Assembly (NCBI GenBank): GCA_028288725.1
Contig: JAQGIC010000029.1
Location: 1-40,553, forward strand
Direction of reading: 5' to 3'
DNA from: Rhodospirillales bacterium
Lineage (GTDB): Bacteria > Pseudomonadota > Alphaproteobacteria > ATCC43930 > CGMCC-115725
Length of the DNA: 40,553 nt
The translations under genes were made by a program, and so were the position numbers. This document shows positions 10,268-40,553 of the stretch, piece by piece. Within the stretch, counting starts at the first letter, position 1. Each line of letters begins with the position of its first letter. The notes under the pieces are model-generated. The model was given only the letters and a program-made list of their open reading frames with translations. It had not been told where the DNA came from and did not search any database.

Positions 10268-10293
10268 CGCCAAACAAACCTCGCTCAACCCTT

Positions 10294-10406
10294 GAGCGCG
10301 ATGATATGAGGCTCTCTCGGCCTCATATCCGAATCGCTCTCAAAACTATATATTCAGAGACTGATTCGCCGATCAAACCGAGCAGGTTCGATCGGATGAG
10401 GCTCTA
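10294..10406. repeat. Cloverleaf-type dispersed repeat (copy A)
   Basis: This copy aligns along its whole length, in reverse orientation, with 22670-22784. It has three stems. The first is GATATGAGGC (10303-10312) with GCCTCATATC (10320-10329). The second is a middle arm flanked by GAATC and GATTC blocks. The third is CCGATCAAACC (10369-10379) with GGTTCGATCGG (10385-10395), in which one pair has become a wobble. It ends in GCTCTA at 10401-10406. It lies between the autotransporter terminator and the IalB start. Confidence 0.8.
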
Positions 10407-10469: not shown

Positions 10470-13400
10470 CTACCAGCTGAACCTGAACCCAGCCGTGATG
10501 GCGTTGCTGGAGGCGCCGTTGGCGAGATCGCCGTCATAGTGCAGGTAGACGCTGGTGTTGGCGAACACCGCGGTCGCCAGTCCGAAGCCGACGAGCGCGC
10601 TATCGCCCGGCACCTTGACCCCGGCGATCTGGAAGCCCGCCGTCGGCGCGCCCACGAAGGCGGCCGTCATGCCGCGCCCGGTCGGTGCGAACTCATGCGC
10701 CCAGGCGACCGACAGGTCGGTGGTGACCAGCATCGAGCCCAGCGCCAGATCGGTGCCGAGCCGCGCGCCGAGCGTGCTCTTGACCGAGCTTTGCGACTGC
10801 TTGGCGACATGCAGGTCGAGCACGCCGGCCCCGGTCTCGGTGAAGCCGTCCTGGTCGACCGAGGCCAGCGTCAAGCCGGCGAACGGCGTCAGCGTGGCGG
10901 TCCCCAGCGCCAGGCCGTAACCGGCCTCGAGCGATGCCGTGACCTGGGTGTCGGTCACATGGCCCGACGCCTGGCCCGGCAGGCCCGGCAGCGACACGTT
11001 GCGCAGCGTTGTGCCGTCGCCGTAGGCCACGCCCATGGTGCCGTCGAGATAGACCGGACCCTGGGTATAGTCGGCATAGAGCGCGAACTGGGTATGGTCG
11101 ACCTGACCCCGCCCGCCGCCGTCGTCCAGGCTGAAGGTCGTGCCGCCGTAGCCGAGGCCGGCACCGACCCGGAGCGCCGGCGTCAGCTTATAGTCGGCGC
11201 CGACCGAGCCGCCGGCGATGGTCTCGTCCAGGCGATGGCTGTTGCCGTCGCCGGCCAACTGGCCGACCTGACCATAACCCGAGGTCCAGACGCCCCACGG
11301 CTTGTCGATGTTCGCCACCGGGTCATCCGACCCGCCGTCGAGCCGTGCCAGTTCCGTGCGCCCGCCGGCCGCCATGGCGCTCCGGCCCGAGGCGGTGCCG
11401 GAGGCCCCCAGCCGGGCGAGCGCGGCCTGCTGCGAGAACTGACCGGTAAAGGCCGCGCCGGTCTGCAGCGCGGTGGTGCCGAGGCTGGCGTGGCTTTCGC
11501 CCGACAGACGCGTCAAGGACGAGGTCACCTCGGCCGCATTCAGCTGATCCAGCCCGCGGATCGCCCCGGCGAAGCCGGTCGGGTTCGCGGCCAGGCCGGC
11601 ATCGAACGCGACGGCGACGGCATGCTGGTTCGCGGTCTCGACGATCGCCGGCGGGGAGACCGGCGGAGACACAACCGGCGGAGACACGACCGGAGGCGAG
11701 ACCGGAGGCGACACCGGCGGCGAGGCGACCGGCAACTGCGCCAGGGTCACGATCGCATCCTTGGCATCGTAGCTCAGGCTCGGCACCAGCAGGGCCGAGG
11801 CGACCGTGACGCCGCCGGCGAACGTGCCGGTCACGCCGCCCGACGCGGTCAGGATCGTGTAGGGCGTGCTGGCCGCCAGGAACGTGCCCGACGGCACGAC
11901 CGCGACCGAACCGGCCAAGGCCGCCGTGCCGGTGACGTTGAACTTCGACCCGCTGCCATTGGCGTCCAAGGCCACGCGGAGCGTGCCGGTCGAGGCCTGG
12001 GCGAAGTTGCCGGTCAGGTTCAGCGCCGCGCCGGTCGTGCCGGCCTGGAACGTGCCGGCGTTGGTCACGTTGGCGATGGTCCAATTGCCGGTCGCGGTCC
12101 AGTCGGCGCCGGTTCCGACGGCGAGCGCGCTGCCGCTGCCGAAATGGGCGATCGGGCTGGCGAGCGTGCCGGTGCCGGTGAGATTGATCAGGCCGGCGCC
12201 GCCGCCGCCGTCGATCGAACCGGTCAGCACCGTGCCGGTGCCGAGCGTCAGGCTGTTGACCCCGGCATCGAACTGCACGGCCACGCCGCCGGTCCCGGTG
12301 ATCGTGCCGTTGTTGGTGAAGCTGGCACCGGTCCCGGTGAAGACCACGCCGACGACGCCGCCGACCGTGCCGGTGCTGGCATTGGTCATCGTGGCGTTGC
12401 TGCCGAGCGAGGCGCCGGCGATGGCATCGTCGAGGATCGTACCCGCGTTGCTGACCGCGCCGCCCGAACCGACCACGACGCCGTACCGGCCGCCCTGGAT
12501 CAGGCCGCCGGCCAGGTTGGTCACGGTGCCCGAACTGGTGACGCCGGTATCGGACGTGCCGATGATCGTGCCGCTGTTGTTGATCGAGCCGCTGCCGCTG
12601 ACACCGATGGTGCCGCCGGTCACGGTACCGGTGCTGCTGTTGGTGAAGGTACCGGTGTTGGCGACCGAACCCGAGCCGCTGATCCGCCCGGTGTTGGACA
12701 GGCCGCCGCTGTTCGACAGGCTGCCCGTGTTGTTGATGCTGCCGCTGTTGGTCAGGCTGCCGGCGTTGGCAAGGCTGCCCGTATTGGTCAGGCTGCCCGT
12801 ATTATTGAGGCTGCCGCTGTTGGCGAGCGTACCCGAGTTGGCCAGGCTGCCGCTGTTGGTCAAACCGGCCGTGTTGCTGAACGTGCTGCTGTTGGTCAGC
12901 GTCCCGCTGTTCGACAGCGAACCGTTGTTGGTCGACGACGTTCCGATATTGACCACGCCGCTGTTGGTCAGGAACGTGCCGCTGGCGACCGTGACCGTGC
13001 CGTTCAACGTGCCGGCATTGTTCAGGGTACCCACGGTCACATCGGCGTTGGTCACGGTCGAGCCGCTGTCGACGGAGTTCGACGCATTGTTGAAGATCAC
13101 GGTCTGGAAGCCCGTGACCTGCGCATTGTTCAGCGTGGCGGTGCCTTGGATCACCAGCGTGTTCGTACCGTTGGCGCCGTTGGCGACGCCGATGAGCGCA
13201 CTGCCGCTTTCGAGGATCAGTTCGTTGGTGCCGCCGGAGAACCGGATCGAGTTGCCGGCGGTGCCGCCGCCGATCGTGCCGAAATTATCCACCGTCCCGC
13301 TGGCGCCGCTGGCGAACAGGATGCCGACGCCGGCCGTGCCGGTGCCCAGGATGGTGCCCAGATTGGTGATGGTCGCCGTGCCCGCGCCAATCAGGATGCC

Positions 13401-16400
13401 GGCCGTCTGGCCGGTAATCAGGCCCGAGGTGTTGTTGGTGACAGTACCGCCCGCCGACAGCGAGACCCCCAGGCCGGCCGTGCCGCCCTGGAGAATGCCG
13501 GCGTTGCTGACCGAGACGCCGGCGACCGTGCCCAGCACCGCGGCCTGGCCGACCGGCGCGATGGTCGCCCCGGCCGCGTTATTGAGCGAGGCCCCCAATC
13601 CGGCGAGCTGGACCTGTTGACCGATGCTGCCGGTGTTGGTCAGCGTCGCGCCGGCGCCGGCACCGATGCTGGTGAAGTTGAGATATTCGGTGCCGATACC
13701 CAGGTTCGCGATCGTGCCGCCGGTGTCGAACTGGACCGTGCTGACGCCGCTGCCGCCGTCGACCACGCCGCCGAAGGTCGCTCCTTGCTGGACCTCGAGC
13801 AGATTGGTGCCGCCGCCGAACCGCCCCGCCGTGCCGGAATTGCCGATGATCGTGCCGCTGTTGATCACGGTGTAGAACTGATTGGTCCCGGTGTTGTTGA
13901 TGAAGATGTTGTTGCTGAGGATGCTCAGGCCACCGGGTTGGCCGAACCGGATGCCGACACCGGTCGTGCCGGTGCCGCTGATCGTGCCGGCATTGACGAT
14001 GGTGGTAGCGTTGACCAGCGTGCCGGACCCGTCATACCGGCTGTAGATGCCCGCAGTCCGGCCGGTGATCACCGCCCCGGACGTATTCGAGATGCTCGCC
14101 GGCGCATTGCGCAGAGAGATGCCGTACGAATTTCCGCTGCCGCTGCCCTGGATCGTGCCGGCATTGGTAATCGTGCTGGCATTCACCAGCGTCCCGCTCG
14201 AGTCGTACCGGCTATAGATGCCGGCGGTTACGCCGGAGATCAGGCTGGCGGTACCGCTGTTGGTGATGCTGGCCGACCTGTTTCGCAGGCGGATGCCGTT
14301 AGAGCTTCTGGTGCCTGCGGCCAGGATCGTGTCGCTGTTGGTTATGGTCAGGGTTCTCGCGATCGTTCCGCTGCTGCCAGCAAAGATGCCATCGCCGTAG
14401 CGGGTGCCGGTGGACTTGATCGTTCCGCTGTTGTTGATCGAGGCGCTGCCGGCAACGTACAGGCCCTGGTAGGCACCGGCGATGACACCGCTGTTGGTAA
14501 TCGACGCGGTGGACGATCCGGTGGCGTGGTAGCCGACATACACACCCGCGCTGCTTCCGGTAATCGTGCCCGGGTTCGTGACGCTGCCACCCGCGAGATA
14601 GACGCCCAGCCCGCCGAGAGTGCCGGCATTGGTCAGCGACACACCGGCAGTCGCCCCGAACACGGCAAAGTGGCCGGCGAACGCGATGGTGCCGCCCGGC
14701 TGGTTATAGAGATAGGCGCCGGCACCATCCAGCACCACCCCGCCGCCGAAGCTGCCGTTGTTGGTCAGCGTGACGCCGGCCGCGGCGCCGACGCTGTTGA
14801 AGTTCACCAGCGTCACGTTTGGAACCAGCGCTCCGGGAGCGGAAACCAGCGTTCCGGGAGCGGTGAGCGTCCCGCTGGCCGTGGTTTCGAGGGCGTTCTC
14901 GCCGGAGCTGCTGCCGAAGACCACGCCGCCGAACGTGGCGCCCTGTTCGAGCACCAGCAGATTGGTGCCGCTGCCGAAGCGGACCGCCGTGCCGGAAGTG
15001 CCGATGATCGTGCCGCTGTTGGTCAGCTTGCTGAGCCGGTATGCGTCGTTGCTGTTGAACGCGACACCGACGCCGCTCGTGCCGGTCCCGATGATCGTGC
15101 CGCTGTTGGTCACGCTGGCAGTGCCGTAGCCGATCCGCACGCCGATCTGGCCACCGGAGATGACGGCGGCGCTCCCGCTGTTGGTGATCTGGCCGCCGTA
15201 GTTAACGTTAACGCCATCGACGCCGCCAGCGATGGTGCCGGCGTTGAACAGCTTGACGCCAAATCTCGAATAAACACCGTTCCGGCCGCCCGAGATGACG
15301 CTGTTGACCCCGAGATTGGTCACGGTCCCGGCACCAGTATAGTGCCGGCCGTTATAGAGGGTGACAGCGTTCCGCGTACCCGAGATCAGCCCCGCACCGT
15401 CGTTTGTCACCAGCGCGCTGTTGTATTCCCCGTAAACGACGACGCCTTGGTAGCCGGTAATCGTGCCGGTATTGCTGACCGTGCCGCCGCTCTGCAAACG
15501 GACGCCCCTGCCGTAGGATGCCGTCGAGGCGATCGTGCCGGCATTCGTCACGCTCACCCCCGTGGCGCCATAGCTGCCATAGACGGCATTTTGGCCGCTG
15601 GTGACGAGCGAGGCGCCTTGCAGGTTGATCACGGCGGCACCGGTGCCGGCCAGCAGCACCTGACCGCCGAAGGTGGTGCCGCTGTTGGTCAGCGTGACGC
15701 CCGCCGCCGCGCCGATGTTGTAGAAATTCACCAGCGTCCCGCCGCCGACGGTCGTCGGCAGCGCCAGGTCGCCGCTGGCGGTCAATTCGACCGTATTCAG
15801 GCCGGTACCGCCCACGATCAGGCCTTGGAACACGCCGGTCTGCTCGGCCACCAGCAGGTTGTTGCCGTTGCCGAAGCTGACCGCCGTTCCGCCGTTGCCG
15901 ATGATCGTTCCGGTATTGTCCAGCGTGTTGTTTTCGTTGTTGCTGAACGCGACGCCGATGCCCGATGTCCCAGAACCCAAGATCGTCCCGGCATTCGTGA
16001 CCGTGACGGCACGATAGAAGGCGTTCACGCCGAAGGTGGCGCCCGAGATCAGGCTGCCCGTACCGTTGTTGGTGACCGAACCTTGGTAGAGCGCGACGCC
16101 GGTGCCCGAGCCGGTACCGGTAGCCTCGATCGTGCCGAAATTCGATACGGAGCTCGATGTGGAGCCGGATTGCATCCTGACGCCATAGCTCGTGCCCTGG
16201 ATCAGACTGCCGGTGGTGCTGTTCACGACCGAGCCGCGATATACGGAAACGCCGGTAGAAGCGGTGCCGATGCCCTGGATCGTCCCGGCGTTCGTGACCG
16301 TGCCGTAGTTGCTGGCGATCCTGACGCCGTAGCCGGTGCCCGAGATCAGGCTGCCCGCGCTGCTATTGGAGACCGTGCCGCCAGCAGCCAGATAGACACC

Positions 16401-18497
16401 GACCCTACTGCTCGAACTGGCGAGGGCGAGGATCGTGCCGGTGTTGAAGACGGTGCCGTACTGGTTCCTGATGCTGACGCCATAGGTGCCGCCCTGGATC
16501 AGCCCGCTGTTCGTGACCGTGCCGCCGTTTCTCAGATAGACACCGGCTGAGTAGGAAGCGGTGGCGGTGCCGATGATGGTGCCGCTATTCGTGACGAAGC
16601 CGTACTGGTTGGTGATCTTAACGCCATACTCGTTGCCCGAAATCAGGCCGCTGTTCGTGACCGTGCCGCCCTGCCCCAGAGAGATGCCGGCCCGGGAAGA
16701 GGTGCCGATGCTGATGATCGTGCCGAAGTTCGTGACCGAGCTCGACACGGAGCCGTACATCTTGACGCCGTAGCCGTAGCCCTGGATCAGGCCGCTGTTC
16801 GTGACCGTGCCGCCGGCGCCCAGATAGATGCCTGCCGCATTGCTCCCCCGACCGCCGGCCGAGATCGTGCCGAAGTTCGTGACCGAACTCGAGGTCGAGC
16901 CGGACGTCTTGACGCCAAAATTATAGCCCTGGATCAGGCTGGCGCTGCCCTGGTTGGTGACGACGCCGCCTTGCTGCAGATAGACACCGGCTCCCGTGAA
17001 GGAGTTAGCGGAAATCGTACCGGCATTCGTCACCGTCACGCCGGCCGCGGTGCCATAGACCGCGGAGTAGACGGAGGTGGCGATCGTGCCGGTGGCCGTG
17101 TTGTAAACCATGGCGCCCGCGCCACCCAACAGCACCTGGCCGCCGAAGGTGGTGCCGCTGTTGGTCAGCGTGACGCCCGCCGCCGCGCCGATGTTGTTGA
17201 AATGCATCAGCGTCCCGCCGCCGATGCTCGTCGGCAGCGAGATGGTGCCGCTCTGCAGCATTTCGACCGTATTGACGCCGGTCCCACCGACGATCGCGCC
17301 CTGGAACACACCGTTCGGCTCGTCCACCAGCACATTGTTGCCGTCGCCGAAGCTGACCGCCGTCCCGCTATTGCCGATGATCGTGCCGGTGTTGTCCAAG
17401 AAATTGTTGCCGCTGGCGAACGCGACGCCGACGGTACCCTGGATCGTCCCCGCGTTCGTGACCGAGCCGTTTCCGAAGATCCTGACGCCATACTGGGCAC
17501 CCGAAATCAGGCTGCCCGAACCGCTGTTCGTGACCGTGCCGCCGTTCGAGAATTCGACGCCGATGCCGGCGGTGCCGGTGCTGATGCCCTGGATCGTCCC
17601 CGCGTTCGTTACCGTGCCAGACTGGTTGATCCGGACACCAACCCCGGCATACCCGGCGCCCGAGATCAGGCTCGCGGTGCCGTTGTTCGCGACCGAGCCT
17701 TGGTTGAGAAAGACGCCGGTGGAAGCGGTGCCCTGAATCGTCCCGGCGTTCGTGACCGTGCCGTTTCCGCTGGAGATCCTGACGCCGTAGCTGCCTCCCG
17801 AAATCAGGCTCGCGGTGCCGTTGTTGGTTACCGTGCCGCCCGATCCCAGAGAGACGCCGATACCGGCCGCACCCGCCTGGATCGTGCCCTCGTTCGACAC
17901 CGTGCCGATATTATTGGCGATCCTGATGCCGTAGCCGCCACCGAAGATCAGACTACCCGTGCCGCCGTTCGTGACCGTGCCACCTTGTTGAAGCGAGATG
18001 CCGGCGACAGAGGGGCCGGTCGCGGTGGCAAGGATCGTACCGAAGTTCGACACCGAGTTCGATGTCGAACCGGACATGCCGATGCCGAAGTAAGAGCCCG
18101 AGATCAGGCCGCTGTTCACGACCGTGCCGTTGTATACAGAGACAGCGCTGGTAAAGGCGGCGGTGCTGCTGATGGTTCCGCTATTGGACAGCGTCCAGGT
18201 CTGAGAATTACCGCCGTAGACCCCATCGCCGCTCGTGACGCCGATCGTCGCCCCCGGTGCCACCGAGAAACTCGCCACGCCGCTGTAGTTGGCGAGGTTG
18301 ATCGTCGTCGTCGCCGGCCCAATCGCCGTTTGCGCCTGGGCGGCCGGAGCCAACACCACGCCCAGCGGCAGGATCGCCGGCAGCGCCAGGAGCGCTACGC
18401 GGGCGCAACCGCCCAGCAGGGTTTCCCGAAGGCCCCTCACCCGCGCCTTCGAGGAAACGAAAGGGGCAATGCCGGTCGGGCGCGCGGAAAAAATCAT
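10470..18497 (-). CDS. Giant type V (autotransporter) outer-membrane protein
   Basis: This protein has 2675 residues. Residues 1-55 are a long signal peptide ending ALPAILPLGVVLAPAAQA, of the extended kind seen in autotransporters. The passenger (about 56-2250) is built almost wholly of short beta-helix strands of the form VTNSGTIxG and is nearly free of Cys. At least six times it contains a longer cap unit of the type GTAVSFGDGNNVLV followed by GxVxGGxGxNxxE. Around 1855-1955 is an array of six-residue repeats (xNxGSL). Residues ~2257-2283 are a Pro-Ser-Val linker (SPPVSPPVSPPVV). The last ~280 residues from DKPWGVWTSGYG form the 12-strand beta-barrel and end in FRFSW with a terminal aromatic residue. 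It probably acts as an adhesin or surface layer fibre. No protease motif was noticed. A terminator follows, and an AraC-type gene lies upstream on the same strand. Confidence 0.93.
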   Translation of the reverse strand: MIFSARPTGIAPFVSSKARVRGLRETLLGGCARVALLALPAILPLGVVLAPAAQAQTAIGPATTTINLANYSGVASFSVAPGATIGVTSGDGVYGGNSQTWTLSNSGTISSTAAFTSAVSVYNGTVVNSGLISGSYFGIGMSGSTSNSVSNFGTILATATGPSVAGISLQQGGTVTNGGTGSLIFGGGYGIRIANNIGTVSNEGTIQAGAAGIGVSLGSGGTVTNNGTASLISGGSYGVRISSGNGTVTNAGTIQGTASTGVFLNQGSVANNGTASLISGAGYAGVGVRINQSGTVTNAGTIQGISTGTAGIGVEFSNGGTVTNSGSGSLISGAQYGVRIFGNGSVTNAGTIQGTVGVAFASGNNFLDNTGTIIGNSGTAVSFGDGNNVLVDEPNGVFQGAIVGGTGVNTVEMLQSGTISLPTSIGGGTLMHFNNIGAAAGVTLTNSGTTFGGQVLLGGAGAMVYNTATGTIATSVYSAVYGTAAGVTVTNAGTISANSFTGAGVYLQQGGVVTNQGSASLIQGYNFGVKTSGSTSSSVTNFGTISAGGRGSNAAGIYLGAGGTVTNSGLIQGYGYGVKMYGSVSSSVTNFGTIISIGTSSRAGISLGQGGTVTNSGLISGNEYGVKITNQYGFVTNSGTIIGTATASYSAGVYLRNGGTVTNSGLIQGGTYGVSIRNQYGTVFNTGTILALASSSSRVGVYLAAGGTVSNSSAGSLISGTGYGVRIASNYGTVTNAGTIQGIGTASTGVSVYRGSVVNSTTGSLIQGTSYGVRMQSGSTSSSVSNFGTIEATGTGSGTGVALYQGSVTNNGTGSLISGATFGVNAFYRAVTVTNAGTILGSGTSGIGVAFSNNENNTLDNTGTIIGNGGTAVSFGNGNNLLVAEQTGVFQGLIVGGTGLNTVELTASGDLALPTTVGGGTLVNFYNIGAAAGVTLTNSGTTFGGQVLLAGTGAAVINLQGASLVTSGQNAVYGSYGATGVSVTNAGTIASTASYGRGVRLQSGGTVSNTGTITGYQGVVVYGEYNSALVTNDGAGLISGTRNAVTLYNGRHYTGAGTVTNLGVNSVISGGRNGVYSRFGVKLFNAGTIAGGVDGVNVNYGGQITNSGSAAVISGGQIGVRIGYGTASVTNSGTIIGTGTSGVGVAFNSNDAYRLSKLTNSGTIIGTSGTAVRFGSGTNLLVLEQGATFGGVVFGSSSGENALETTASGTLTAPGTLVSAPGALVPNVTLVNFNSVGAAAGVTLTNNGSFGGGVVLDGAGAYLYNQPGGTIAFAGHFAVFGATAGVSLTNAGTLGGLGVYLAGGSVTNPGTITGSSAGVYVGYHATGSSTASITNSGVIAGAYQGLYVAGSASINNSGTIKSTGTRYGDGIFAGSSGTIARTLTITNSDTILAAGTRSSNGIRLRNRSASITNSGTASLISGVTAGIYSRYDSSGTLVNASTITNAGTIQGSGSGNSYGISLRNAPASISNTSGAVITGRTAGIYSRYDGSGTLVNATTIVNAGTISGTGTTGVGIRFGQPGGLSILSNNIFINNTGTNQFYTVINSGTIIGNSGTAGRFGGGTNLLEVQQGATFGGVVDGGSGVSTVQFDTGGTIANLGIGTEYLNFTSIGAGAGATLTNTGSIGQQVQLAGLGASLNNAAGATIAPVGQAAVLGTVAGVSVSNAGILQGGTAGLGVSLSAGGTVTNNTSGLITGQTAGILIGAGTATITNLGTILGTGTAGVGILFASGASGTVDNFGTIGGGTAGNSIRFSGGTNELILESGSALIGVANGANGTNTLVIQGTATLNNAQVTGFQTVIFNNASNSVDSGSTVTNADVTVGTLNNAGTLNGTVTVASGTFLTNSGVVNIGTSSTNNGSLSNSGTLTNSSTFSNTAGLTNSGSLANSGTLANSGSLNNTGSLTNTGSLANAGSLTNSGSINNTGSLSNSGGLSNTGRISGSGSVANTGTFTNSSTGTVTGGTIGVSGSGSINNSGTIIGTSDTGVTSSGTVTNLAGGLIQGGRYGVVVGSGGAVSNAGTILDDAIAGASLGSNATMTNASTGTVGGVVGVVFTGTGASFTNNGTITGTGGVAVQFDAGVNSLTLGTGTVLTGSIDGGGGAGLINLTGTGTLASPIAHFGSGSALAVGTGADWTATGNWTIANVTNAGTFQAGTTGAALNLTGNFAQASTGTLRVALDANGSGSKFNVTGTAALAGSVAVVPSGTFLAASTPYTILTASGGVTGTFAGGVTVASALLVPSLSYDAKDAIVTLAQLPVASPPVSPPVSPPVVSPPVVSPPVSPPAIVETANQHAVAVAFDAGLAANPTGFAGAIRGLDQLNAAEVTSSLTRLSGESHASLGTTALQTGAAFTGQFSQQAALARLGASGTASGRSAMAAGGRTELARLDGGSDDPVANIDKPWGVWTSGYGQVGQLAGDGNSHRLDETIAGGSVGADYKLTPALRVGAGLGYGGTTFSLDDGGGRGQVDHTQFALYADYTQGPVYLDGTMGVAYGDGTTLRNVSLPGLPGQASGHVTDTQVTASLEAGYGLALGTATLTPFAGLTLASVDQDGFTETGAGVLDLHVAKQSQSSVKSTLGARLGTDLALGSMLVTTDLSVAWAHEFAPTGRGMTAAFVGAPTAGFQIAGVKVPGDSALVGFGLATAVFANTSVYLHYDGDLANGASSNAITAGFRFSW
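11649..11730 (-). repeat. Short tandem repeat coding the Pro-rich linker
   Basis: Repeats of 12-15 bp (GGCGGAGACACAACC-like on the plus strand) encode the units PPVS and PPVVS between the autotransporter passenger and its translocation unit. Copy number could vary between strains, changing linker length without a frameshift because each unit is a multiple of three. Confidence 0.75.
12636..12935 (-). repeat. 18-bp tandem array in the autotransporter passenger
   Basis: About 16 units of an 18-bp repeat (CTGCCGCTGTTGGTCAGG-like on the plus strand) encode repeats such as GSLTNT, GSLANA and GSINNT. The unit is six codons, so gain or loss of units keeps the frame. It is the most regular stretch of the passenger and differs from the longer, less regular strands around it. 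Confidence 0.8.
15651..15748 (-). repeat. Long direct repeat in the passenger, unit 2
   Basis: This ~95-bp segment is nearly identical in DNA to 17130-17225, differing at only a handful of bases. It encodes the cap region that includes IGAAAGVTLTNSGTTFGGQV. Such DNA-level identity between units that differ elsewhere suggests recent duplication or gene conversion. Confidence 0.75.
17130..17225 (-). repeat. Long direct repeat in the passenger, unit 1
   Basis: Partner of the segment at 15651-15748 in the same orientation. It encodes the same cap sequence. Recombination between the two would delete or duplicate about 1.5 kb of passenger in frame. Confidence 0.75.
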
Positions 18498-21538: not shown

Positions 21539-21664
21539 GCGGCGACCATCAGGACGAACTCAGCCTCCTAACCCCCGCATTTTAAAATGGTTTCGCCGGT
21601 TCTCGCAAATGAAGGAACGAAGGGCGCCTTGGCCTGTTCTGGGCAAAACCCCGAGGAGCGGCAA

Positions 21665-22672
21665 ATGAGCATGAAAGACGGAGCGTCGATTTCGCGGCGC
21701 CAAATGGTCGGCGGCATGGGTGTCGGTCTCGTCGCGGCCACGGCCGCCCCTCCGGCCCTCGCCCAAAATGGCGCGACGAAACCCACCGCGGCCCCCTTGC
21801 AGGACCCGCAGACCAAATATCCGAAGCCGCCCTACAAGAAACAATCCCAACCCTGGCCGGGCCTCGCCAGCAAGATGGAGCCCCGCCCCGATCATGGCGA
21901 GACGAGCTATCGCGGATCGGGCCGGCTCCAGGGCCGCAAGGCGCTCGTCACCGGCGGCGATTCCGGCATGGGCCGCGCCGCCGCCATCGCCTTTGCCCGC
22001 GAAGGGGCCGATGTCGCGATCAACTATCTGCCGGACGAGGAGCCCGACGCGCGCGAGGTGATCGCGCTGATCAAGGCGGAGGGCCGGATCGGCCTCGCCA
22101 TCCCCGGCGACATCCGCAGCGAGGATTTCTGCCGGCAGCTGGTCGACCAGGCGGTCCACGGCCTGGGCGGTCTCGACATCCTGGTCAACAACGCCGGCCG
22201 CCAGCAGACCCATGCCTCGATCCTGGACATCACGACCGAGCAGTTCGACTGGACGATGAAGACGAACATCTACGCGCCGTTCTGGATCATCAAGGCGGCC
22301 CTGCCCCACCTGCCCCCCGGCGCCGCGATCATCGGCACCGCGTCGGAACAGGCCTACGATCCCTCGGCCGATCTCTATGACTATGCCCAGACCAAGGCGG
22401 CCACGATGAACTATGTGAAGTCGCTGGCGAAGCAGCTGGCGCCCAAGGGCATCCGGGTCAACGCGGTGGCGCCCGGCCCGATCTGGACGCCGCTGCAGAT
22501 CTCCGGCGGCGCCACCATGGAAAAGCTGGAGAAGTTCGGCGGCGAGTCACCGTTGGGCCGGGCCGGGCAGCCGGCGGAATTGGGCTCGATCTATGTCCAG
22601 CTGGCCGCCGCCGACGCGAGCTTCGCGACCGGCCAGGTCTATGGCTCGTCCGGCGGCCACGGCCAGCCCTAG
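21665..22672 (+). CDS. SDR-family oxidoreductase with Tat-like signal
   Basis: The start at ATG 21665 is set by AGGAG seven bases upstream; the frame is open for 26 codons further but has no better start. The 335-residue protein begins with a twin-arginine type leader (SRRQMVGGMGVGLVAATAAPPALAQ). A Pro-rich spacer follows, then a classical short-chain dehydrogenase domain: TGGDSGMG cofactor loop near 105, NNAG near 180, Ser in GTASEQ, and Tyr/Lys in the YAQTK (YxxxK) motif. It resembles the YhdF/GS39 branch of stress-induced SDRs. The substrate is unknown. A Tat leader on an NAD(P)-dependent enzyme is notable. It runs divergent from the ligase. Its TAG stop is the first triplet of a dispersed repeat. 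Confidence 0.88.
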   Translation: MSMKDGASISRRQMVGGMGVGLVAATAAPPALAQNGATKPTAAPLQDPQTKYPKPPYKKQSQPWPGLASKMEPRPDHGETSYRGSGRLQGRKALVTGGDSGMGRAAAIAFAREGADVAINYLPDEEPDAREVIALIKAEGRIGLAIPGDIRSEDFCRQLVDQAVHGLGGLDILVNNAGRQQTHASILDITTEQFDWTMKTNIYAPFWIIKAALPHLPPGAAIIGTASEQAYDPSADLYDYAQTKAATMNYVKSLAKQLAPKGIRVNAVAPGPIWTPLQISGGATMEKLEKFGGESPLGRAGQPAELGSIYVQLAAADASFATGQVYGSSGGHGQP

Positions 22673-22826
22673 AGCCTGATCCGATCAAACCGGCTCGGTT
22701 TGATCGGTGAATCAGTCTCTAAATATCTGATTTAGAGGGCGATTCAGATATGAGGCCGAGCAGGCCTCATATCATCGCGCTCTAGAGCGCGATCAAGCCG
22801 AGCAGGCTCGATCGGATCAGGCTCCA
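22670..22826. repeat. Cloverleaf-type dispersed repeat, full copy plus inverted half (copy B)
   Basis: The full unit spans 22670-22784, closed by TAGAGC and GCTCTA. It holds three stems: CCGATCAAACC/GGTTTGATCGG (22681-22707, loop GGCTC); CTCTAAA/TTTAGAG (22717-22737) inside GAATC/GATTC; and GATATGAGGCC/GGCCTCATATC (22747-22773, loop GAGCA). A second, inverted first-stem half follows at 22785-22826. The junction of the two is a perfect 20-base palindrome (22774-22793). The unit begins with the stop codon of the SDR gene, and the far end is 1-2 bases from the stop of the convergent SnoaL-like gene. Confidence 0.85.
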
Positions 22827-22827
22827 G

Positions 22828-23256
22828 CTATCCGGCGAGAAGCGCCTTGAGCGCTGGGCCGGCGCGTTCGGCCATGGTCTGGCCGAGCGCCATCAAGGCG
22901 TTCCCGGGGCGGATCATCACCTCCAGCTCGACGATCAGCCCGTCGGCATCGAAGCGGAACATGTCGATTCCCTTCAAGGACTTGGCCCCGATGTTGGCCC
23001 CGAACTCGAGCACGGCGCTCGACCCGTCCGGTGTGTAGAAGGTGCGGAAATAAGTGAAATTCTCGAACACCGTGATGACCGTGCTCAACACCAGCACGGT
23101 CGCCTCCTTGCCCGGATAAGGCTTGAAGAAGGCCGGCGAGCGGAACACGACCCCGTCGGCGAGGATCGACGGCAGCGCGGCGACATCGCCGGTCGCGATG
23201 ATCTCGCCCCAGGTCGCGAGCGTGCGCGCGACCTGGGGCGGTATGGCTTCGGTCAT
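22828..23256 (-). CDS. SnoaL-like / NTF2-fold protein
   Basis: This 142-residue protein has the length and pattern of the SnoaL-like branch of the NTF2 fold. The N-terminal helix (TLATWGEIIATGDVAALPSI) is followed by LADGVVFRSPAFFKPYPGKE. The beta-sheet strands follow (AVLEFGANIGAKSLKGIDMF), then the FDADGLIVELEVMIRP motif. Members bind small molecules and act as isomerases, cyclases or ligand-binding proteins. No specific catalytic set can be named. It starts 16 bp after the exonuclease stop on the same strand and so is likely co-transcribed with it, although it is not a known part of the ligase-associated set. It probably arrived as a guest gene. Confidence 0.85.
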   Translation of the reverse strand: MTEAIPPQVARTLATWGEIIATGDVAALPSILADGVVFRSPAFFKPYPGKEATVLVLSTVITVFENFTYFRTFYTPDGSSAVLEFGANIGAKSLKGIDMFRFDADGLIVELEVMIRPGNALMALGQTMAERAGPALKALLAG

Positions 23257-33053: not shown

Positions 33054-33848
33054 ATGACCCCCGACGTCACCGGCTTCTTCGACGAGACGACCAAGAGCGT
33101 CTCCTACCTGGTCGCCGATCCCGGGACGGGGATGGCGGCGATCATCGATCCCGTGCTCGATTTCGATCCCGCGACCGGCACGACCGCGACCGGCACGGCG
33201 GACCGGATCGTCGATATCGTGCTCGGCCGGCATTTCACCGTGCAATGGCTGCTGGAAACCCATATCCACGCCGACCATCTGTCGGCTGGGGCCTATTTGC
33301 GGCAACGGCTGGGCGGGACGCGGGCAATCGGCGCCGGCGTGCGCCTGGTGCATGAGGCGTTTCGCGATCGGTTCGCCTTGCCGCCCGGCGGCCCCGACGG
33401 GTTCGATCATCTGTTCCAGCCCGAGGAATCCTTCCGGATCGGCGGCCTTCAGGCGGCGGCGCTCGCCACGCCCGGCCATACGCCGGCCTGCCTCAGCTAT
33501 CTGATCGGCGACGCCGTGTTCCTGGGCGATACGCTGTTCATGCCCGACTGCGGCACGGCACGGGCTGATTTCCCGGGCGGCGACGCGGCGACGCTCTATC
33601 GCTCGATCCGCCGCATCCTGAACCTGCCCGAGGCGACCCGGCTGTTCGTGGGCCATGACTACCCGCCGGTAACCCGCCACGCCGACTGGATGACCTCGAT
33701 CGCCGACGAGCGCGCGGCCAACATCCATGTGCACGACGGCATCGACGAGGCAGACTTCGTCGCCATGCGCCAGGCGCGCGACGCGACGCTCGATCTGCCC
33801 CGCCTGTTCCACCCCGCGGTCCGCTTCAATCTGGGCAGTGGCCTATAG
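33054..33848 (+). CDS. MBL-fold hydrolase, persulfide-dioxygenase/glyoxalase-II-like
   Basis: This 264-residue metallo-beta-lactamase-fold enzyme has THIHADHLSAGAYLR (His70, His72, Asp74, His75), ATPGHTPACLSYLIGD with the next His ligand, FLGDTLFMPDCGTARADFPG with the bridging Asp, and LFVGHDYPP with the last His. The DCGTARADFPGG block and GHDYPP are typical of the ETHE1/Blh-like persulfide dioxygenase branch, which oxidises glutathione persulfide, rather than glyoxalase II. An AAGGGA ribosome-binding site precedes the ATG. The gene is 16 bp after pdeM and may share its transcript. The neighbouring MAPEG protein downstream is also linked to glutathione chemistry. The TAG stop begins a dispersed repeat. 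Confidence 0.9.
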   Translation: MTPDVTGFFDETTKSVSYLVADPGTGMAAIIDPVLDFDPATGTTATGTADRIVDIVLGRHFTVQWLLETHIHADHLSAGAYLRQRLGGTRAIGAGVRLVHEAFRDRFALPPGGPDGFDHLFQPEESFRIGGLQAAALATPGHTPACLSYLIGDAVFLGDTLFMPDCGTARADFPGGDAATLYRSIRRILNLPEATRLFVGHDYPPVTRHADWMTSIADERAANIHVHDGIDEADFVAMRQARDATLDLPRLFHPAVRFNLGSGL

Positions 33849-40452: not shown

Positions 40453-40553
40453 GTCATGGCCGGGCTTGACCCGGCCATCCACGTGGTTGGGCAAGCCGAT
40501 TTCACGGCCAAACAGGGCTCCGGCGGAGGGGCGTGGATGCCCGGGTCGAGCCC
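40453..40553. repeat. REPIN-like element, copy 2, cut by window end
   Basis: This sequence is the reverse orientation of the element at 2036-2147. The first palindromic unit ATGGCCGGG-CTTGA-CCCGGCCAT is identical in its stem. The middle shares CACGTGGTTGGGC and a GGCTCCG-like block. The far unit (GTGGATGCCCGGGTCGAGCCC) runs off the window. The middles differ more than the ends, so selection or recent copying acts on the palindromes. Confidence 0.8.

Follow-up and report, generated by a model that had tools for sequence, protein, structure and literature searches.

The three-hairpin repeat found in the window (the whole stretch of 40,553 nt that was analysed) is most probably a non-autonomous element of the IS630/Tc1-mariner type (MITE), whose placement would result from insertions that restore the stop codon they hit. 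A probability of about 0.8 is given to this reading. The insertion is accompanied by a TA duplication at Rhizobium sites, the ends resemble those of an IS630 element of the same genome, and the element is non-coding, 115 bp long and present in high copy number. The TA duplication, the stop-codon placement and the additional hairpin adjoining copy C had been overlooked in the initial annotation.

Copies in the window and in the genome

The borders of the element are exact, TA-GAGC...GCTC-TA, over 115 bp. Each half is a palindrome consisting of TAGAGC-xx-GAT, a hairpin arm, and TGAATC-x'x'-NCTCTA. The two halves face each other and are separated by about 11 A/T-rich bases. The initial annotation had proposed four copies built on one plan. 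Two are complete, copies C and B, which have 117 nt in common with 87% complementarity, and the other two, A and D, are only degenerate halves (Table 1). Perfect 11-bp outer hairpins with 5-base loops, and GAATC/GATTC beside the middle arm, are indeed present at 22670. The gene ending on copy C (21587-22672) matches Pfam adh_short_C2 with an E-value of 3e-53. The right-hand TA of copy C is common to this copy and to the hairpin that adjoins it. The left TA of copy B has decayed to TT.

Table 1. Positions of the element and its parts in the window.
Feature	Position	Strand	Evidence
Copy C, full 115-bp element TA|GAGC...GCTC|TA	22670..22784	+	blastn and covariance model, 136.5 bits; reference copy of the alignment
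Copy C, left palindromic half TAGAGC-CT-GAT (hairpin) TGAATC-AG-TCTCTA	22670..22721	+	RNAalifold pairs columns 1-52; half-unit pattern
Copy C, hairpin of arm 1, 11 bp, 5-base loop	22681..22707	+	folding; compensatory change in the alignment
Copy C, spacer between halves, 11 nt, A/T-rich	22722..22732	+	alignment columns 53-63
Copy C, right palindromic half, with another 11-bp hairpin (22747-22773)	22733..22784	+	RNAalifold pairs columns 64-115
TAG stop of the SDR-family gene 21587-22672, from the left edge of copy C	22670..22672	+	gene call, sequence
Additional single hairpin (solo or deleted unit)	22783..22826	+	sequence; covariance model match 22790-22814, 17.6 bits; inverted repeat
Copy B, full element, between two minus-strand genes	10292..10406	-	covariance model, 104.4 bits; gene calls
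Copy A, degenerate half copy	359..~418	-	covariance model, 30 bits, E 2e-5; gene calls
Copy D, degenerate half copy with a different arm	33846..~33914	- (relative to the model)	covariance model, 17.5 bits, E 0.03; gene calls, sequence

The window was scanned with the covariance model with filters off. The match of copy A extends to 495, of which only the part up to about 418 is element-like. Copy A has convergent genes on either side and covers the last codons of the left one. An unrelated palindrome at 2042-2139 scores like copy D (18 bits, E 0.02), so that the score alone does not separate them. Copy D was accepted because TAGAGCGCGAT...GAATCGC surrounds a hairpin of other sequence, and because its TAG (33846-33848) is the stop codon of the plus-strand gene 33054-33848.

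Two other features of the window were observed. Another palindromic repeat, of the GTCATGGCCGGGCTTGACCCGGCCATCC type, occurs in at least three places, within 2029-2152 and 40453-40501, and resembles the alphaproteobacterial REP families that bear a CGTC tag (PMC3733652). The minus-strand open reading frame 10470-18497 encodes 2675 residues with many degenerate repeats at a spacing of 18 nt and longer. It gave no Pfam match at an E-value of 0.001 and may encode a large repeat-rich surface protein.

The host genome (5.54 Mb in 146 contigs), alphaproteobacterial as judged from its relatives, contains more than 100 copies of the element. A covariance model was built from 26 of 30 loci found with blastn (L005, L015, L022 and L023 were left out), which align without gaps and with a mean column identity of 97%. 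At E ≤ 0.1, the model matches 149 of the 150 scored candidates; this is a lower bound as 4,414 candidates were obtained at first look, and the weakest 16 matches have E-values of 1e-6 or more. The pattern of the ends, TAGAGCSNGAT, occurs 143 + 122 times, versus 10 + 16 times for the backward control. The initial annotation had suggested a search of this kind; it returned further copies, and the description of a non-coding three-hairpin family located at gene ends holds for a far larger set than that of the window. At L020 (1502-1726), two elements in tandem have the central TA in common, an arrangement that the insertion of one element into an end of its neighbour would give.

A TA dinucleotide is duplicated at Rhizobium insertion sites

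Empty sites were found in Rhizobium relatives of the element, that is, in another genus than that of the window. In these relatives, a 113-bp insertion duplicates TA, mostly at CTAG. Joining the flanks of site L302 and searching plasmids retrieved 103 records. Among the 60 listed, 15 are filled, matching in two pieces over about 715 bp, and 45 are empty, matching in one piece of about 600 bp. In five empty relatives that were read, a single TA is present (within CTAG in three, TTAG in two), versus a TA at both borders of filled sites. The same pattern was observed at a second site, filled in L303 and empty in L313, where the empty site was read by locating the flank. At the L303 site, strain WSM1325 has a changed site and was not counted. 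The comparison of L307 with the joined flanks in R. binae was left out as the alignment was too poor. A different long palindrome, GCATAACCCCGAAAA...TTTTCGGGGTTATGC, another repeat-like hairpin, is found just to the right of the element in L303, and in L313.

The difference between empty and filled sites is the TA duplication expected of IS630/Tc1-mariner elements. In the host genome, TA is present at both ends in 47 of the 61 copies found. In these 47, the preceding base is C in 31, T in 14 and A in 2, and the following base is G in 45 and T in 2. The 155 half-units collected elsewhere have a similar preceding base (C 118, T 28, A 6, G 3). According to Tenzen and Ohtsubo in 1991, the IS630 transposon reportedly prefers the TA in CTAG. 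Elements of the IS630 family duplicate TA, and 34 of 39 analysed products of ISY100 were in TA with the normal duplication (PMC2170065).

A candidate transposase

The host genome has one DDE_3 match (E 2.5e-33), located in an IS630-type element of 1065 bp (L031, 964-2028). The ends of this element are TAGAGCCGGAT and TAGAGCGGGAT, with TAGAGCNNGAT at both. The likeness to the 115-bp element is modest beyond TAGAGCNNGAT, and past about 11 nt, and no 11-bp arm like that of the element was observed at the L031 end. Two frames encode the transposase; they overlap, and a run of A at this place points to programmed frameshifting.

The ends of 34 IS630 loci were tested (L031, 5 of 20 loci, and 28 others), 27 of which are long enough. 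TAGAGC is found at both ends in six of the 27, all 1015-1065 bp long and two of them from one genome, and 21 have other ends. In four of the six, one end has GAATC among its first 32 bases, a motif also found in the halves of the element. No DDE_3 match was found in six of 12 genomes bearing the motif, which speaks against the link to IS630; mobilisation there would be past, or due to something else, or the transposase was missed by the assemblies. From the shared ends and the family, we infer that a transposase of this subgroup acts on the element by a cut-and-paste route.

Relatives across Alphaproteobacteria

As judged from sequence comparison, relatives of the element across Alphaproteobacteria keep the skeleton and have unrelated hairpin arms. 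Within the same family, six of 39 genomes (including the host genome) match at E ≤ 1e-5, over 90-138 bp, with the same skeleton and unrelated arms. The skeleton pattern was detected in five of 43 genomes of the order and nine of 385 of the class, the host genome being counted in both, and the backward control pattern matched none of these. Among named genomes, at least 111 stretches carry the skeleton. Those of the 80 names listed that are more specific than "Proteobacteria" are alphaproteobacterial as far as the names tell. Among the matches listed, hosts include Mesorhizobium, Xanthobacter, Azorhizobium, Bosea, Caulobacteraceae, Hyphomicrobium, Filomicrobium, Rhodospirillaceae and Sphingosinicella.

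The member found in Rhizobium has two palindromes and is about 113 bp long. Close copies of this sequence type also occur in Mesorhizobium and Bosea contigs. In most Rhizobium copies examined, the left half is changed to TAGAAC...GTTCTA, which is again paired within the half. Osteras et al. are said to have described in 1995 RIME1, a Rhizobium-specific intergenic mosaic element about 108 bp long, which has two large palindromes, lies between genes and is present in high copy number. On this description, the Rhizobium/Mesorhizobium member is presumably RIME1. It could be proposed that the element of the window is simply the published RIME1 in a wider range of hosts, with nothing new in kind. 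The two palindromes and the length of the Rhizobium member speak for this proposal, together with its abundance: a Mesorhizobium copy used as query matched 347 plasmid records, of which 345 are from Rhizobium, at 1,408 places in total. However, the window copies have only the skeleton in common with the Rhizobium member, and the published name says Rhizobium-specific. We consider this identity rather doubtful, although it is the strongest competitor to the reading as an IS630-type MITE.

Placement on stop codons

Genes were called with an in-house codon-usage caller trained on the window and applied to 78 copies of the host genome (blastn, at least 90 query bases aligned). None of the 78 lies within a called gene for 60% or more of its length. 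The 71 copies with both neighbours called lie between convergent genes in 44 cases, tandem genes in 24 and divergent genes in 3, versus 39 convergent out of 157 background gene pairs (Fisher p 1e-7). In 50 of the 78 copies, the edge triplet of the element (TAG in 48) coincides with the end of a gene, and this occurs on both sides in eight. The 58 such edges read TAG in 56 cases, TAA in one and TGA in one. The remark in the initial annotation that copies lie over the last codons of genes pointed to this placement, which itself had not been recognised.

The element was removed in silico. At the 45 edges with an intact TA, this leaves TAG in 35, TAA in nine and TAT in one, hence a stop in 44 of 45; at all 58 edges, decayed ends included, TAG or TAA is left at 51. 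Since an in-frame TAG or TAA is impossible inside a gene, it was the stop codon itself that these insertions hit. Of the remaining CTAG sites of these loci, 32 are stops, 45 are intergenic and 18 fall inside genes. Copies are at stops more often than are non-coding CTAG sites (50/78 versus 32/77, Fisher p 0.006), with related copies counted as independent, many copies of this genome being close relatives. No called stop is present at 28 of the 78 copies, nor at 98 of 144 ends elsewhere.

In other genomes, 144 left ends were testable: 46 are the stop of a called gene and one is inside a gene. Only one further gene runs on into the element within 60 bases. As for the remaining CTAG sites of these loci, 34 are stops, 139 lie inside genes and 152 are intergenic. 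The deposited annotation ends a gene exactly on the TAG of the element at eight of eight Rhizobium loci, which were picked for having a gene under the match; a gene is named in 24 of 50 listed rows with annotation. At two Rhizobium loci, the gene has the same length in filled and empty strains (1347 and 1008 bp, two empty strains each), indicating that the position of the stop is old there. The codon in the empty strains is TAA or TGA, not TAG.

Alternatively, the host might have co-opted the element as a bidirectional hairpin at mRNA 3' ends, or terminator, which is compatible with a transposon origin. The 44 of 71 copies between convergent genes, and base pairs kept through compensatory change, are in favour of such a role. 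A U-tract is nevertheless absent beside the hairpins, the placement is equally explained by the loss of insertions from genes, and presence or absence varies among related strains. As an account of the family, we regard this role as unlikely.

Two tandem hairpins

The conserved form of the element is two tandem hairpins and not a closed cloverleaf. The search pattern imposes TAGAGC, GAT, TGAATC and CTCTA, so that pairing is tested only by the arms and by the two bases left free. Strict dimers number 41, of which 31 are from the host genome and 10 from others; their two free bases pair within the half in 38 and 39 of the 41, and are complementary across halves in 0 and 1 of the 41. Among the half-units of other genomes, 141 of 155 have xx complementary to x'x', with a shuffle mean of 34.9 and a maximum of 49 in 1000 shuffles. 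The arms of these half-units form at least 30 clusters at 70% similarity. With one representative taken per arm cluster, these bases pair within the half in 28 of 30, versus a mean of 6.0 and a maximum of 14 for shuffles. Outside the host genome, 135 of the 155 arms fold better than all of 100 shuffles. Within the alignment, a compensatory change from A-U to G-C at columns 20/30 is found in 10 of the 26 copies.

Energies were calculated with RNA parameters and are not decisive in the host genome. For its 31 dimers, the mean energy is -60.9 kcal/mol for the forced cloverleaf versus -61.0 kcal/mol for two hairpins. Two hairpins are lower in energy in 17 of the 31 and in eight of 10 dimers elsewhere. 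The tRNA-like closed four-way junction put forward in the initial annotation is thus discarded as the conserved fold, on the grounds of covariation within halves.

It is very improbable that the element is a structured RNA of cloverleaf type acting as an RNA gene or cis-regulator. The fold is very stable (22669-22828, z of -12.7 relative to 200 shuffles, for a stretch that includes the extra hairpin beside copy C), and 11 of the 31 dimers of the host genome have the closed form as their minimum-energy structure. Against this function stand the covariation inside halves and not across, the placement at gene ends with only three of 71 copies between divergent genes, the TA-flanked insertions and their empty sites, and the diversity of the arms. 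Rfam gave no match at the gathering threshold across the window, by which a known RNA family is rejected; the initial annotation had likewise recognised no named family.

The least probable reading is that of a REP/BIME-like repeat mobilised in the form of single-stranded DNA by a hairpin-recognising RAYT (Y1) transposase: hairpin units occur as singles and dimers at gene 3' ends, and GTAG REPs supply TAG stops to flanking ORFs (PMC3733652), but Y1_Tnp (PF01797) has no match in the host genome while five of 14 control genomes match, a lack by which this candidate was rejected, and TA is duplicated at empty sites.

Proposed mechanism

For the preferred reading as an IS630-type MITE, a transposase of the IS630 subgroup with TA-GAGC ends would recognise the ends of the element and move it into TA, preferably in CTAG, with duplication of the TA. 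Because the first base of the element after the duplicated TA is G, an insertion in TAG or TAA leaves a TA-G stop in place. As CTAG is its own reverse complement, this restoration works for genes on either strand. Insertions within genes would be lost and those at stop codons kept, so that the surviving copies would lie between convergent genes and at stop codons. The arms differ by lineage yet stay paired. The hairpin may be selected, for instance as a harmless 3' end of host transcripts; alternatively, correction of palindromes by template switching may keep it perfect.

A broader proposal is advanced tentatively, its chances being judged slightly below even. The element would belong to a class-wide lineage of IS630-type MITEs, of which RIME1 is probably a member. 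Its ends would be fitted to the amber stop, so that it lands on and restores stops on either strand and hides from selection in a gene-dense genome. The lineage would repeatedly exchange its arms for others, new and perfectly paired, which then form the 3' ends of host transcripts. Independently of this proposal, the results join palindromic repeats of many alphaproteobacteria in one transposon-like family with a simple grammar, and suggest a testable origin for RIME-type repeats. They also provide a clean case of a mobile element avoiding harm by landing on stop codons. It becomes testable as well whether selection or template-switch correction keeps the hairpins perfect as their sequence turns over.

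Comparison with known systems

Among the papers covered, mostly judged from listings and with most subscription journals outside the search, none was recognised as joining these facts. Titles and beginnings of abstracts on insertion of IS or MITEs into stop codons yielded none on point, and an absence from the literature is not claimed. The review of prokaryotic MITEs PMC10969869 makes no mention of stop codon, IS630, Rhizob, Alphaproteobacteria or RIME.

The element and IS630 insertion sequences are alike in the TA duplication and the preference for CTAG, and a subgroup of the latter has TA-GAGC ends. Unlike these sequences, the element has no coding content and carries hairpin arms. With RIME1, the likeness is in length (about 108-115 bp), two palindromes, intergenic location and high copy number; the corresponding traits here are 115 bp, two palindromic halves and no copy among 78 inside called genes. 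The arms of the window copies are unrelated in sequence to those of the Rhizobium member, the probable RIME1, and the skeleton reaches far beyond Rhizobium. Bru-RS of Brucella, likened by description, is a palindromic intergenic repeat of 103-105 bp, also from an alphaproteobacterium (PMC2267715). GTAG REP elements are short palindromes at gene 3' ends, the termini of which often supply the TAG of flanking ORFs (PMC3733652). The supply of TAG therefore has a precedent in another class of repeats, which differs in being GTAG-tagged hairpins linked to Y1 (RAYT) transposases, whereas the host genome is without Y1.

By analogy, the nearest described analogue in mechanism appears to be RUP of Streptococcus pneumoniae, the ends of which are like those of IS630-Spn1, by which it is proposed to be moved (PMC3049150). 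Both are short and non-autonomous (about 107 bp for RUP), have ends like those of an IS630 element and are over-represented between convergent genes. As likened by description, RUP differs in being AT-rich and in having an unrelated host, and the account of RUP, in the parts of PMC3049150 covered, includes neither a two-palindrome skeleton with lineage-specific arms nor the restoration of stop codons.
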